This document shows positions 2,103-9,946 of a stretch of 34,272 nucleotides of DNA, piece after piece. The position numbers were made by a program, and so were the translations under genes. Source of the DNA: Acidimicrobiales bacterium (lineage in GTDB: Bacteria; Actinomycetota; Acidimicrobiia; Acidimicrobiales; RAAP-2); assembly GCA_025351385.1 (NCBI GenBank), contig JANXWA010000034.1:94406-128677 (forward strand), in the 5' to 3' direction. The notes beneath the pieces were generated by a model. It made no database searches and was not told the origin of the DNA. It saw only the letters and a list, made by a program, of their open reading frames with translations. Numbering within the stretch: position 1 is the first letter of the stretch; every line of letters begins with the position of its first letter.

Positions 2103-3713
2103 CTAAATGGACGGCTTCGTGCGGGGCCGCGGAATCGAGTGGATGAAGAGCGCCGAGAAGAGTCCTACCGCGCCGACGCAGGCCCCGATGAAGAACGGCA
2201 GCTGGAAGGTCGCCAGCAGCGCCGCGCCGGGCTTCGCGTGGCCCAGGTGGTGGCGATGCACGAGCGCCTGCTGCACCGTCTCGAGCACCTGGATGCCCGC
2301 GACCTCGCCGACCTGCATCGCGAGCATCTGGGCCGCGGTCATGACGCCGAACTCGTTCGGCTTGACCTCGTTGGCCATGACCGAGCTCGACGACGGCATC
2401 GCGACGCCCATGCCGAGGCCCGACAGCGCGAGAGCAACCGCGATCATCCAGGTGCCCGAGCTCGGCGACAGCAATGCGAACAGGCCCAGCGACGCGGTGA
2501 GGAACGTGGCCCCCGCGATGGCGCTCACCCGCTCGCCAATACGCACGGCCACGTAGCCCGCGATCGGCGAGCAGAGAGAGAACGTGATGGGCCGCGCGAT
2601 GGCCAGCGCGCCGACGTGCGGGATCGAGTAGCCGTAGCCCTGCTCCATCAACAGCGGAAAGAGGAAGAAGGCGCCGAAGTAGGCGAAGTTCGCCGTCGCG
2701 CGCAACACCATCGGCATCACGAAGTTACGCCGTCTGAAGTAGTGCGCGGGGATGAGCGGATTGCGTGCGGTGCGGATCCGCTGGACGAACGAGAGGGTCA
2801 TCAACGCCGACAGGGCGAACGCGGAGAGGCACCATACACTCGACCAGCCGACGCTCGGGCCGATCGAGAGGCCCAGCATCAGCGTCGTGACGGCGAGTGA
2901 GAGCGACCAGCTGCCCAGCCAGTCCATCCGCTTGAACTCGAGCCTGGCCTCGGCCTTCTTCTGGACCTCCTCAGCGTGCGTGCCGCGGCGCTTGGGCAGC
3001 ACGATTGACACCACACAAAAGGCCACCACGAGCAGAACCAGCTGGAACCAGAAGAGCGCCCGCCACCCGTAGGCCGCGATGATGGGGGCGCCGAGCGACA
3101 CCCCGATGACCGGTCCCCCGGCGCCCACGAGGCTCCACCATCCCATCGCCTTCACCCGCTCCTCGCGCCCGAAGACCATGTTGATCAGCGCTCCCGACGC
3201 CGTGCCCGTCGCCGCCCCCTGGATGCCGTCGAGCGCTCGAGCGAAGAGCAGCATGTCGACGTTGTGCGCGACCGCGGTCAGAATCGCCGAGACCATGGCC
3301 CCGAGCAGCCCGAAAAGGTAGAGCCGGCGGTGGCCGTAGATGTCGCCGGTCTTCCCGAGGATCGGGGCCGCCAGGCCGTAGGCGAGCAGGGGGCCGACCA
3401 TCGTCCACGTCAGCACCGTCACGCTCGTGTGGAACTGCGTCGCCACGGTCGGCAGCGCCACGATGAAGACGGTGAAGGTGAAGTTGAGCGCGAACAGGCC
3501 CGCCAGCAGCGACCACAGGACCCACCACTCGTAACGCGACGAACCCTCGGCGCGCGCTTGCACGCGGTGGCGCAGCATCCGCAGCCAGTTGAGGTCGCTC
3601 CCCGCCTCGTTGCCGAGCGTGCCGAAGGCCTCCGCGCCGGGATCGGTGCGGGCGTTCAGAAGCCCGTCGGGGTCCTCGCGGTCCAGATGCGCCGCCGGGC
3701 GCTCGTCGCTCAC
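2103..3713 (-). CDS. MFS transporter, drug:H+ antiporter family
   Basis: This 536-residue membrane protein belongs to the major facilitator superfamily, probably the EmrB/QacA-like drug exporters. A hydrophilic N-terminus of about 60 residues (rich in D, R and E) precedes the first membrane helix at about 64-90. Motif A reads G-D-I-Y-G-H-R-R at about 123-130, and about 12-14 hydrophobic segments follow. A charged cytoplasmic loop (K-R-R-G-T-H-A-E-E-V-Q) lies mid-protein. The GTG start at 3713 overlaps the stop of the short-chain dehydrogenase as GTGA, so the two are co-translated and may act on a related compound. The cargo is unknown. The stop lies 23 bases before the hydrolase start, which seems to have its own promoter. 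Confidence 0.88.
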   Translation of the reverse strand: MSDERPAAHLDREDPDGLLNARTDPGAEAFGTLGNEAGSDLNWLRMLRHRVQARAEGSSRYEWWVLWSLLAGLFALNFTFTVFIVALPTVATQFHTSVTVLTWTMVGPLLAYGLAAPILGKTGDIYGHRRLYLFGLLGAMVSAILTAVAHNVDMLLFARALDGIQGAATGTASGALINMVFGREERVKAMGWWSLVGAGGPVIGVSLGAPIIAAYGWRALFWFQLVLLVVAFCVVSIVLPKRRGTHAEEVQKKAEARLEFKRMDWLGSWSLSLAVTTLMLGLSIGPSVGWSSVWCLSAFALSALMTLSFVQRIRTARNPLIPAHYFRRRNFVMPMVLRATANFAYFGAFFLFPLLMEQGYGYSIPHVGALAIARPITFSLCSPIAGYVAVRIGERVSAIAGATFLTASLGLFALLSPSSGTWMIAVALALSGLGMGVAMPSSSSVMANEVKPNEFGVMTAAQMLAMQVGEVAGIQVLETVQQALVHRHHLGHAKPGAALLATFQLPFFIGACVGAVGLFSALFIHSIPRPRTKPSI

Positions 3714-4588
3714 TTCAGCAGAGTGGGCAGTTGCGCAGCGAGTTCACTGACCGTCCATCGGTCGTTCTTCTCGAGGGTGTCGGTCATGGTCCAGTTCTGG
3801 AACCGGCGCACGGTGCCGCCCTGGACGAAGAACGTCTGGCCGGTCGCCTCACAGTCCTCCATCGCGAGCGTCGCGACGAGTGGCGAGATGTTGGCTGGGT
3901 CCCACACGTCGAAGACCGCCGCGTCCGAGGGCTTCACGACGTGGTCGGAGAGCCCCGGCGTGGACTCGGTCATCCGGGTTCGCGCGGCGGGGGCGATCGC
4001 GTTGGCGCGCACGCCGTAGCGTCCGAGCTCCTCGGCGATGATGACGGTGAAGGCCGCGATGCCAGCCTTGGCGGCGCCGTAATTGGATTGGCCGATGTTG
4101 CCGAGCAGCCCCGACGTCGACGACGTGTTGATGATTGACGCCTTCACCGGGTCGCCGGCCTTGGCCCGCTCGCGCCAGTACGTCGCGGCGTGGCGCGACG
4201 GGACGAAGTGGCCCTTCAGGTGGACCTTGATGACCGCGTCCCAGTCGTCCTCGCTCAAGTTGACGAGCACCCGGTCGCGCAAGATCCCGGCGTTGTTCAC
4301 GAGCACGTGCAACTCGCCGAAGGTGTCCAGCGCGGTCTGGATGAGGCGCTGGCCGCCCTCCCAGTCCGCCACGTTGTCGTGGTTCGCGACGGCCTCGCCG
4401 CCCATGGCCTTGATCTCGGCGACGACCTCCTCGGCCGGTGTGGCGACCTGGTCCGATCCGTCGAGCCCACCACCAAGGTCGTTGACGACGACCTTGGCAC
4501 CCTCGGCGGCGAACAGCAGGGCGTGCTCGCGTCCGATTCCGCGGCCGGCTCCGGTGATAATTGCTACGCGACCGTCCAGTGCACCCAT
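3710..4588 (-). CDS. Short-chain dehydrogenase/reductase, MFE-2/HSD17B4-like
   Basis: This 292-residue classical SDR has the cofactor motif T-G-A-G-R-G-I-G at 12-19, N-N-A-G at 98-101, catalytic Ser157 in N-T-S-S, Tyr170 in S-N-Y-G-A-A-K and Lys174. Asp37 at the end of the second strand (V-N-D-L-G-G) favours NAD(H) over NADP(H). Together with the G-R-V-A-I-I-T-G start, this resembles the dehydrogenase part of peroxisomal multifunctional enzyme type 2 and the actinobacterial relatives used on hydroxyacyl-CoA or steroid substrates. The substrate is inferred from family only. The ATG at 4588 has a good ribosome binding site, AAAGGGGA, five bases upstream. Its stop overlaps the MFS transporter. 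Confidence 0.9.
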   Translation of the reverse strand: MGALDGRVAIITGAGRGIGREHALLFAAEGAKVVVNDLGGGLDGSDQVATPAEEVVAEIKAMGGEAVANHDNVADWEGGQRLIQTALDTFGELHVLVNNAGILRDRVLVNLSEDDWDAVIKVHLKGHFVPSRHAATYWRERAKAGDPVKASIINTSSTSGLLGNIGQSNYGAAKAGIAAFTVIIAEELGRYGVRANAIAPAARTRMTESTPGLSDHVVKPSDAAVFDVWDPANISPLVATLAMEDCEATGQTFFVQGGTVRRFQNWTMTDTLEKNDRWTVSELAAQLPTLLK

Positions 4589-4643: not shown

Positions 4644-4940
4644 CTAGACCTGACCTCGTCGCCAGAAGTAGGGGGGACGGGCGTGCGCGTGGTAGTGGTC
4701 GGGGATGTTGCGCATGTGGTCGTCGACCTTCCAGTTGCCCCGGCCGAGCGCCTCGTCGGCGACGAGGCCGAGGGCCCCGAGGAGCCGTACGCGCACCTCG
4801 TCGGGCGGCGCCGAGTCGTGGACGCGCCACACCACCATCGGCACGAGGCAGATCTCGCAGTCCGCGATCCAGCAGTCGTCGTCCTGGAAGTACCGCGTCG
4901 TCACGACCGCGGCCTCGCAGAGGTCACAGTCGAGCCTCAT
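4644..4940 (-). CDS. Small conserved Cys/His-rich protein with zinc-ribbon-like cysteines and a HIT-like histidine run
   Basis: This 98-residue protein has two Cys pairs, C5-x-x-C8 and C28-x-x-C31, which could bind one zinc. Between them and after is D-C-W-I-A-D-C-E-I-C-L-V-P-M-V-V-W-R. Near the end is I-P-D-H-Y-H-A-H-A (79-87), which matches the H-x-H-x-H pattern of HIT-family nucleotide hydrolases. I believe similar proteins occur widely in Actinobacteria as uncharacterised proteins, but I cannot name a function. The ATG at 4940 overlaps the stop of the PASTA kinase homologue as ATGA, so it is translationally coupled and probably works with, or is at least expressed with, that protein. A longer in-frame reading to 5378 lies antisense-like within the kinase gene and is rejected. 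Confidence 0.8.
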   Translation of the reverse strand: MRLDCDLCEAAVVTTRYFQDDDCWIADCEICLVPMVVWRVHDSAPPDEVRVRLLGALGLVADEALGRGNWKVDDHMRNIPDHYHAHARPPYFWRRGQV

Positions 4941-6829
4941 TTCACATTCAACGAGACCGTAGAGAGTCGCTTGACCTTCGTGCCCGCGGCCGGGATCTGC
5001 GACACGACGCTCGTCCACGTGGGATTGGGGCCGGAGCCCGGCCCGCTGGTCGTGTAGTAGAGGCCGACGGCCTTCATCGCGGCCAAGACCTGAGCCTCGT
5101 TCTTCCCGACGACGTTGGGCATCGAGACGAGCGGCTGGGCGACCGTGGTGGTGGTCGTTGACGTGGTTGACGTGGTTGTCGCGCCGGCGACCGTCGTCGT
5201 GGTCGTGCCCGAGGCGACCGTGGTGGTGGTGGTCGAGGTGCCCGTCCCCTTCGAGAGCGCCAGCACCAGCGTCGAGTGCAGCGGGACGGCCGGCGGTGCC
5301 GGCCTGTTCTTGTAGAGGATCTTGGCGACCCGCCCGGCCGGCACGACGGCGCTCGTCACCGAGGCCGAGCTCGGACACTGTGCGCTGATCTTCTTCTTCG
5401 CGAGCTGCGCGGTCGCCGTGCCGCAGTCCTCTCCGATCAGGGTGGCGGGCAGCGTGACCATGACCGGGCCGTCCGAGATCGTGACCGTGATGACCTGGCC
5501 GCTCTTGGCGCCGGTGCCCGCCGCCGGGCTCTGCGAGATGATCCCGTTCTTGGCAACGGACGACGAGTTGGCGTGCTGGTTCGCCGTCACCGTGAAGCCG
5601 TCAGCCTGCAGTTGCGTCGCCGCCTCGGAGAGGGTCAGGTTGGTCAGGGAGGGGACGTTGTGGTTCTGGCTGAAGAGGCCGAGCTTCCACGCGGCTCCCC
5701 CGCCGACCGCGACGACCACGAGCAGCAGCGCGGCGAAGAAGAACGCCAGTCGGCGGTTGCGCGGCGGTCGCTCGTAGTCGATGTGCTCGAGCCCGAGCGG
5801 CGCGGCGCGGCGCGGCGACGGCGCGGCGCTACCCGGGACCCAGTCGTCGGCCGCGCGAACCCTCACGGGTCGGGGCGTGCGCGGGGGGATCGACGAGGTG
5901 GTGCCGGTGATCTGGTCGGGCGAGGGCGGTCGAAAGCCGATGGAGCTGCGCGGCTCGGTCGGCGTGAACTGGGCCAGAAGCGGCACCTCGCCTCGGACGG
6001 GCGCCACCACCAGGGGCGTTGCGTCGCTCACCACGCCCGAGAGACGGCTCGCGAACGGCTCGGCGTCGAGGCGTAGACGCGGGTCGGGCACCGCGGCCTG
6101 GGCGAGCAGCATGTCGAGGGTGCCGAGCTCGGGGCGTACGGGCAGCGACGAGTTGATGCGCGCGCGCAGCACCGCCTCGGGCGTCATGCCCTCGAAGGCC
6201 GTGGTGCCGGTGACGGCCTCGAAGATGATGAGGGCCAGCGCGTAGACGTCGCTCTTGGGTCCGGCCGGATCGCCGATGGCCTGCTCGGGGCTGAGGTAGC
6301 GCACGTCGTCGAGCGTGAAACGCTCGCGGTAGGCCGTAGAGAGGCCGGCCAACGCGATGTCGCTCAGACGGACCCGACCCTCCGCGTCGAAGAGCAGCTT
6401 CGACGGCGAGAGCGACCCGTGCACGAATCCGTTGTCGTGGACGTAGCCCAGCGCGCTCGCGACGTCGCGGCCGAGTCGGGCGCCGTCGTCGACGCTGAGT
6501 CGACGTCCCGACGCGAGTATGTCCTCGAGCGAGCCGCCCGTCAGGAACTCGGTGATCATGAAGATCGCCCCGCCCTCCTGGCCCCCGTCGTAGACGCGCG
6601 CGAGGTGGGGGTGGCTCAAGGTCGCGGCGCGCACGATGCGGTCGCGAAAGGCCCGACGGACATCCTCGTGCTCCGCCAATCGCGGCAACAGCACCTTCAC
6701 GACGACCGTGCGCTGCAGGGAGAGGTCTTGGGCGACGTAGACCTCAGCCGTCTGGCCGACGCCGAGCAGCTCGTCGATGCGGTAGCGGTTGACCAGGTGG
6801 TGACCGGAGGAGAAGGTGGACGGTGGCAT
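4937..6829 (-). CDS. PASTA-domain Ser/Thr protein-kinase homologue, predicted pseudokinase
   Basis: This 630-residue protein is laid out like PknB/StkP: kinase domain about 12-265, juxtamembrane linker, one membrane helix at about 361-379, and extracellular PASTA repeats at about 391-453, 454-527 (degenerate) and 566-630. A Thr-rich linker precedes the last repeat. The glycine loop G-V-G-Q-T-A-E-V and ATP lysine Lys45 (V-V-V-K) remain. The catalytic loop, however, reads H-G-S-L-S-P-S-K at 137-144 instead of H-R-D-L-K-P-x-N, so the catalytic Asp, the Lys and the metal-binding Asn are all lost. DFG reads D-I-A (157-159) and the alpha-C Glu is Arg64. It is probably a muropeptide-sensing scaffold or regulator rather than an active kinase. 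ATG 6829 is preferred, with AGGTAAGG 12 bases upstream; a TTG at 6841 is possible. Confidence 0.9.
   Translation of the reverse strand: MPPSTFSSGHHLVNRYRIDELLGVGQTAEVYVAQDLSLQRTVVVKVLLPRLAEHEDVRRAFRDRIVRAATLSHPHLARVYDGGQEGGAIFMITEFLTGGSLEDILASGRRLSVDDGARLGRDVASALGYVHDNGFVHGSLSPSKLLFDAEGRVRLSDIALAGLSTAYRERFTLDDVRYLSPEQAIGDPAGPKSDVYALALIIFEAVTGTTAFEGMTPEAVLRARINSSLPVRPELGTLDMLLAQAAVPDPRLRLDAEPFASRLSGVVSDATPLVVAPVRGEVPLLAQFTPTEPRSSIGFRPPSPDQITGTTSSIPPRTPRPVRVRAADDWVPGSAAPSPRRAAPLGLEHIDYERPPRNRRLAFFFAALLLVVVAVGGGAAWKLGLFSQNHNVPSLTNLTLSEAATQLQADGFTVTANQHANSSSVAKNGIISQSPAAGTGAKSGQVITVTISDGPVMVTLPATLIGEDCGTATAQLAKKKISAQCPSSASVTSAVVPAGRVAKILYKNRPAPPAVPLHSTLVLALSKGTGTSTTTTTVASGTTTTTVAGATTTSTTSTTTTTVAQPLVSMPNVVGKNEAQVLAAMKAVGLYYTTSGPGSGPNPTWTSVVSQIPAAGTKVKRLSTVSLNVK
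5141..5245 (-). repeat. Thr-rich low-complexity coding repeat in the PASTA protein linker
   Basis: Three imperfect copies of a unit encoding T-T-T-T-T-V-A-x (residues about 529-563) appear on the plus strand as runs of gaccgtggtggtggt-type sequence. They encode an extracellular, probably extended or glycosylated linker before the last PASTA domain. Such T-T-T-T-V tracts are frequent in Acidimicrobiia. Copy number may vary between strains. Confidence 0.8.

Positions 6830-6857: not shown

Positions 6858-9946
<3,089 letters not shown>

Follow-up and report, generated by a model that had tools for sequence, protein, structure and literature searches.

A predicted PASTA receptor pseudokinase beside ligA in a genus of Acidimicrobiales

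Introduction

Directly downstream of ligA, on the minus strand of the window (that is, of the whole 34,272-nucleotide stretch of an Acidimicrobiales genome analysed here), the open reading frames include a gene for a PASTA receptor, and comparison of its residues with those of relatives makes it a well supported prediction that the protein is a pseudokinase, and that it is so genus-wide. In the best reading this receptor pseudokinase would work by heterodimerisation or scaffolding. The more specific proposal, that a ligA-linked PASTA Ser/Thr kinase of Acidimicrobiales turned into this protein without leaving its place and that it pairs allosterically with active PknB, is one that we hold with roughly even confidence. 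PASTA receptors and pseudokinases are themselves known kinds, and the unusual element is the repeated loss at one locus. Among the matches listed in the open-access literature no paper on PASTA pseudokinases in Acidimicrobiales was found, and in the accessible part of the review PMC12599244 the word PASTA turns up once, within a reference title, so that no family of PASTA pseudokinases is named there.

The comparison encompassed 99 genomes of the genus to which the window genome (G000) belongs, with 92 copies of the receptor read, 89 of them linked to ligA and three outside this set, two of which are without the catalytic loop; G059 and G067 gave receptor fragments only and stand outside the copies read. 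No receptor copy was found in five of the 99 genomes (G018, G024, G065, G102, and G114), and since one of them is 95% complete, the receptor may be dispensable. In the family of this genus, f1, 64 copies were read in 63 of 73 genomes from outside the genus. For family f7, 121 genomes from a larger group were searched and 33 loci were read among the better matches, 30 of them ligA-linked, and in families besides f1 and f7 the receptor was read in 14 of 15 genomes.

Layout and Surroundings of the Receptor Gene

The gene (4937..6829, minus strand, as are all features given below) encodes 630 amino acids if translation begins at the ATG at 6829; the protein P0001, used here for numbering, begins four codons earlier at a TTG. 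The ATG is the favoured start because five relatives (G008, G012, G014, G049, and G058) carry TAG in the aligned upstream stretch and have an open frame from about there. The protein consists of a kinase-like domain (P0001 residues 20-273; 6023..6784), detected by Pfam as Pkinase (PF00069, 3e-26) and PF07714 (4.8e-24) and having PknB as the closest solved chain by sequence match to structures (1.9e-33), a variable linker, one strong hydrophobic membrane helix LAFFFAALLLVVVAVGGGA (5693..5749) revealed by hydropathy, and outer PASTA domains, of which Pfam calls the first (5471..5656) and the last (4943..5128), the stretch between them looking like a divergent repeat without a Pfam call. The hydropathy helix recurs in all 88 genus copies long enough for the test, and PASTA domains are present in 10 of 10 relatives scanned. 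One membrane helix with outer PASTA domains is the layout of PASTA kinases, and the intact membrane and sensor parts noted in a previous sequence-only reading of this DNA are confirmed by these calls. Structure prediction from two sequences only gave a pLDDT of 33.9, and a promoter and terminator scan gave nothing above shuffled controls.

The immediate upstream neighbour and synteny anchor is ligA, the gene of NAD-dependent DNA ligase (6858..9053), with mnmA (8885..9946) upstream of it; downstream follow genes for a short-chain dehydrogenase (3710..4588) and an MFS transporter (2103..3713), which are the first and the second neighbours in many relatives. The order mnmA-ligA-receptor on one strand is maintained across the genus, the family, and the order, often with the dehydrogenase and MFS genes next. 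Same-strand ligA was found upstream at 181 of the 203 loci read (89/92 in the genus, 49/64 in the rest of f1, 30/33 in f7, and 13/14 in other families), and the unlinked loci may include contig ends. Scanning of contigs revealed one close relative (L066) and two distant ones.

Loss of the Catalytic Set Within the Genus

Eight minus-strand codons (6398..6421) encode HGSLSPSK at the place where active PASTA kinases of PknB/Stk1 type have HRDxKPxN. This loop had been pointed out by the sequence-only reading, and its residue numbers (Ser139, Ser141, and Lys144 in the loop, the remaining Lys45, and Arg64 at the place of the alpha-C Glu) are correct if counted from the ATG at 6829. Two further alterations reported there, DFG changed to DIA (6353..6361) and alpha-C Glu changed to Arg (R68 of P0001; 6638..6640), were found in the sequence as well. 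Comparison of the 89 ligA-linked genus copies extends the loss far beyond one genome: metal-binding Asn is found in none of them, the catalytic Lys in one, the catalytic Asp in 10, and the alpha-C Glu in eight (as against 56 of 56 ligA-linked intact relatives), and the beta-3 Lys, loop Asp, and Asn never occur together in the 89 readable copies. The pairing of beta-3 Lys (K49 of P0001; 6695..6697) with the alpha-C Glu, expected for an active enzyme, is broken on one side, the Lys being present in 76 of 88 copies and the Glu in only eight of 89; the first Asp of the DFG motif is retained in 86 of 89. At the position of the catalytic Asp the residues are A (25 copies), S (21), E (17), D (10), G (9), Q and T (2 each), and V, N, and R (1 each). 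The ten copies with loop Asp read LGDLSPGS (seven) or HADLSPDK (three), and all of them are devoid of the catalytic Lys, the metal-binding Asn, and the alpha-C Glu.

A degenerate loop is thus shared genus-wide by orthologues next to ligA, whereas the exact letters HGS vary within the genus. Orthologues with an intact HRD loop, regarded beforehand as a possible refutation, do exist outside the genus but account for none of the 89 copies inside it; therefore the change is lineage-wide and not a strain artefact. Kinase homology combined with lineage-conserved absence of the HRD Asp (79 of 89 copies) and of the Asn (89 of 89) corresponds to what is called a pseudokinase, so that the earlier prediction, made for the window protein, would apply through the genus. 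The NCBIfam model of PknB (NF033483, cut-off 450 bits) assigns to the window receptor 269.5 bits, the controls being 565.8 for PknB of the same genome, 465.1 and 407.5 for two intact relatives, and 307 for an f7 form; as one of the intact relatives also falls under the cut-off, missing it proves little by itself.

The altered domain is under purifying selection. Estimated by simple counting, and with synonymous change running high in some pairs, the median dN/dS of the kinase domain is 0.056 (0.027-0.186) in 22 genus pairs vs 0.090 (0.022-0.192) in 22 intact pairs, and that of the outer part is 0.159 in 22 genus pairs vs 0.275 in 20 intact pairs. The low value for the kinase domain, together with the open frame and the existence of 89 genus copies, bears out the former description of the protein as conserved rather than decaying. 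The activation loop (6284..6361) is about four residues shorter than in intact relatives (25-27 residues in the genus vs 29-31) and is devoid of the TEP site and of the GT before the APE-type motif. TEP is found in 0 of 88 genus copies, 0 of 30 f7 copies, and 0 of five g22 copies (g22 being one of the genera of f1) vs 53 of 56 intact ones, the exceptions being G135 (g21), G143 (g24), and G162; Thr or Ser occupies the second place of GT in nine of 88 genus copies. The phosphorylatable activation loop of PknB/Stk1 is therefore missing.

Intact and Degenerate Relatives at the Same Locus

Beyond the genus the same locus mostly harbours intact kinases. Setting aside g21, g22, and g24, all 52 copies from f1 genera outside the window genus retain DFG, the alpha-C Glu, and the Asp, Lys, and Asn of the loop; 51 of the 52 also have the beta-3 Lys, which is replaced by Gln in G134. 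Six further f1 genomes have an intact loop, and four others (G125, G126, G131, and G169) yielded no more than a PknB-like paralogue, apart from one further fragment in G126. In families other than f1 and f7, 13 of 13 ligA-linked copies are intact, and so is the copy of G035, which lacks the link to ligA and is possibly a paralogue. Two intact receptors were observed in G119 (L154 and L185), one linked to ligA and the other without ligA in the piece read, which suggests duplication or mixed assembly.

Degeneration is nevertheless not confined to the genus of the window. One of six g24 copies (G145) reads HSAITPTN, the remaining five being intact, and the single g21 copy has HGDLKPSN with a degenerate activation loop. 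The catalytic Asp is lost in all five g22 copies (HGA), and their beta-3 Lys is changed to Arg. As a separate observation, this group (L269-L272 and L172) combines Asp to Ala and Lys to Arg replacements and yet retains both the alpha-C Glu and the metal-binding Asn. In the 30 ligA-linked copies of f7 the catalytic-Asp place is occupied by Glu in 18 and by Asp in 10; the Asn is retained in four, the loop Lys in one, and the alpha-C Glu in one, with the whole set in none. Loss in f7 is thus less complete than in the window genus, and the receptors of G205 and G240, in which the beta-3 Lys, Asp, and Asn are all present, may be active, as far as can be predicted from these residues. Some replacements run parallel: Lys stands at the metal-binding Asn site in 71 of 89 genus and 18 of 30 f7 copies, and Ser or Thr replaces the catalytic Lys in 77 of the 89 genus copies and in 19 of the 30 from f7.

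The number of losses was estimated on two trees, built for ligA and for the kinase domain by quick searches on 83 loci chosen from the 203 read, five PknB rows being added to the kinase tree as outgroup and one chosen locus with short ligA being left out. In both trees the genus (25 rows), f7 (18), and g22 (5) each form one side of a branch, and intact lineages sit between f7 and the window genus. With loop Asp plus Asn counted as intact, the minimum is five changes on either tree, one of them being the G205 exception within f7. A single clade of f7 and the genus was rejected (p-AU 0.00236 on the kinase tree and 0.00124 on the ligA tree), as was one uniting f7, the genus, g21, and g22 (kinase tree, p-AU 0.00266), the groups compared being taxonomic ones, although the tests were run after the trees were viewed and long branches can sway the results according to the program's warning. 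The genus together with g21 and g22 forms one side of a branch of the kinase tree (support 49), an arrangement that was not rejected, and they may share one event or its first step from HRD to HG. The catalytic site thus degenerated at least three times, in the genus, in f7, and in one g24 species, with g22 perhaps belonging to the genus event; probably there were four losses instead of three.

Possible Partner and Mode of Action

A second PASTA kinase with active appearance, proposed earlier as something to look for elsewhere in the genome, was found: an intact kinase of PknB type is encoded at L013:6673-8595 in a cluster with FhaA, a second FHA protein, a PP2C phosphatase, and a PBP. Close matches to this PknB, some of them partial, are present in 97 of 99 genus genomes, and none was detected in G050 and G067, both incomplete. 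R10, L33, and D76 of PknB are what we take to be its back-to-back dimer contacts, and all three are present in the intact kinase of the window genome and, along with HRDxKPxN, in the 30 best PknB matches. Their equivalents in the window receptor are Arg (6785..6787; 88 of 88 genus copies), Leu (6716..6718; 85 of 88), and Asp (6587..6589; 89 of 89), so that the genus holds the residue set of a PknB-type back-to-back dimer, as seen at the level of sequence. The same three equivalents are retained in 56 of 56 intact relatives each and in five of five g22 copies each. In f7 the counts are 28/30, 8/28, and 23/30, and because of this weak retention the same partnership cannot be assumed there. In the accessible parts of the sources, PknB is described as forming back-to-back and front-to-front dimers, with dimerisation held to precede activation (PMC6428115, PMC6333020), and one Leu and one Asp in the dimer of MviN are regarded as analogous to residues required in other bacterial kinases (PMC12599244).

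The proposed course of events would be as follows. Wall fragments or lipid II would be the ligands of the outer PASTA domains, and on the inner side the pseudokinase lobe would pair back-to-back with active PknB; this pairing would activate or restrain PknB allosterically, the pseudokinase itself phosphorylating nothing, and the linker motif GFRPPSPDQI could serve as a docking or phospho-site in this partnership. Pairing with PknB appears to be the simplest use for such a protein, although the R/L/D residues could equally serve folding or homodimers, since intact relatives (56/56) hold them too. Nucleotide binding or some chemistry is also possible, the beta-3 Lys and the first Asp of DFG being mostly retained and the loop Asp still standing in 10 of 89 genus and 10 of 30 f7 copies. 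Several close PknB-type copies were seen in G092 (C11, C13, and C53), G043 (C58 and C51), and G058 (C21 and C3), and the window genome encodes one further Ser/Thr kinase with intact HRDVKPAN in a 562-codon frame (G000:C36:8665-9393, L009), which makes another possible partner.

The linker deserves separate consideration. Within this otherwise variable stretch a short juxtamembrane motif RSSIGFRPPSPDQI (5909..5950) is conserved, with G302 in 95%, F303 in 99%, and P306 in 99% of 88 copies, and it is a candidate docking or phosphorylation site. The pattern GF-x(1,2)-P, defined after the motif was seen, occurs in 84 of 88 genus linkers vs a shuffled mean of 6.5, and a stricter form of the motif in 40 of 88. 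Elsewhere the pattern is found in 5/5 g22, 1/1 g21, 3/6 g24, 10/34 other f1, and 1/12 other-family linkers and is absent from 28 of 28 f7 linkers. The motif may be a docking or phosphorylation site or simply a trait of this branch. It is also the base of the foremost alternative to pairing through the dimer face, namely an MviN-like phosphorylated scaffold, in which phosphorylation by PknB, either of the linker (e.g., near RSSIGFRPPSP) or of the domain, would bring an FHA protein to the membrane, the dimer face being beside the point. FHA domains prefer phosphothreonine, while the motif is best retained at its Gly, Phe, and Pro and not at a Thr; moreover, the pattern is present in 10 of 34 intact f1 relatives, therefore is not special to dead forms, and is missing from all 28 f7 forms, and the dimer residues are nearly invariant in the genus. 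The scaffold is for these reasons rather unlikely in our estimate, even if a conserved Ser/Pro-containing motif within a variable linker, the clustering of FhaA, second FHA protein, PP2C, and PknB genes, and the precedent of PknB phosphorylating MviN and recruiting FhaA, given in the part of the review available (PMC12599244), all speak in its favour.

What is kept of the nucleotide site admits one more interpretation, which we consider improbable: the domain may act as a nucleotide-sensing switch, binding ATP or ADP without hydrolysis and then shifting its contacts. K148 at the Asn site might pair with the DFG Asp (D161) and replace the metal ion by a putative salt bridge, which would be in line with retention of the beta-3 Lys (76/88) and DFG Asp (86/89) and with the Lys at the Asn site in both the genus (71/89) and the separately derived f7 (18/30). 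However, the alpha-C Glu, the partner of the beta-3 Lys, is missing in 81 of 89 copies, and several early-branching members of the genus have His or Arg in place of this Lys. Retention of the Lys and DFG Asp, plus the loop Asp in 10 of 89 copies, might likewise be expected from a kinase fold turned to other chemistry, such as AMP transfer as in SelO, glutamylation, or weak phosphotransfer, and pseudokinases with new chemistry have precedent (PMC12599244, in its accessible part). This is quite improbable, since the catalytic-Asp position drifts among A, S, E, G, and D, unlike a catalytic site, and no new invariant polar cluster was noticed among the listed conserved sites. A decaying gene, an assembly error, or a misread frame, to which failure to find the receptor in five of 99 genus genomes might point, is highly improbable given purifying selection, the conserved position by ligA, the membrane helix in 88 of 88 copies, and a frame that runs uninterrupted across the kinase domain in the genus copies examined, other than those truncated by contig ends; a strain artefact is disfavoured in the same way by the 89 genus copies and the low dN/dS.

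Relation to Known Systems

Allosteric pairing with PknB, the reading that we prefer, places the receptor nearest to the PknB/Stk1-type PASTA kinases, with which it shares the kinase-like domain, the single membrane helix, the outer PASTA domains, and the dimer-residue equivalents; unlike them, it is without the loop Lys, Asp, and Asn, the alpha-C Glu, the FG of DFG, the TEP site, and the GT of the activation loop. Among pseudokinases proper, MviN has its pseudokinase domain joined to a MurJ-type flippase, and EssB/YukC is not known to carry PASTA domains. Comparison with the accessible part of the review (PMC12599244) reveals both likeness and divergence. The MviN domain (ActPs3) is likewise a membrane pseudokinase of actinobacteria, linked to the control of the cell wall and described as forming a back-to-back dimer, but its Lys motif reads VALT and its activation loop carries a deletion, whereas the window receptor retains the Lys and has PASTA domains as its outer part. 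With the beta-3 Lys retained and one membrane helix followed by PASTA domains, the receptor falls outside ActPs3. ActPs1, ActPs2, and DYD are also actinobacterial Ser/Thr pseudokinases, partly membrane-associated, and differ by substitution of all three residues in ActPs1, by Lys to Arg in DYD, and by Lys to Arg, HRD to HRN, and a mostly deleted DFG in ActPs2 (PMC12599244, same part); the receptor, retaining the Lys and the DFG Asp and reading HGS, does not belong to ActPs2 either. EssB/YukC resembles it in being a pseudokinase at the membrane that serves as a scaffold within a homodimer, but it is part of type VII secretion, and its glycine loop is degraded along with each of the three catalytic motifs, again according to the portion of PMC12599244 at hand.

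We tentatively propose, as a possibility that we rate below an even chance, that in Acidimicrobiales the PASTA receptor next to ligA marks a hotspot of repeated change from kinase to pseudokinase, covering a genus of 99 species, much or all of f7, g22, and one g24 species. Within this proposal, the parallel changes of the genus and f7 (Asn to Lys, and catalytic Lys to Ser or Thr) suggest that the intact kinases at this locus would already have been mainly allosteric partners of PknB, in a bacterial analogue of HER3-type receptor pairing. Kinase-pseudokinase receptor pairs are known in animals, and if the proposal is true, this locus would be their bacterial counterpart. It represents a natural experiment, in which one gene in one place has retained or lost its catalytic residues several times with the fold still selected, and with the presumed dimer residues also under selection in the window genus. 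With such a set, what a cell-wall receptor signals by contact could be told apart from what it signals by phosphorylation.

Two more frames of the window genome touch on the same subject. One, of 371 codons (G000:C27:48427-48816, L014), has two PASTA matches, lies near a contig end, and gave no kinase match in the kinase search of the same genome. The other, of 1818 codons, includes a kinase-like stretch (G000:C34:10360-10938, L012; PF00069, 5.2e-16).
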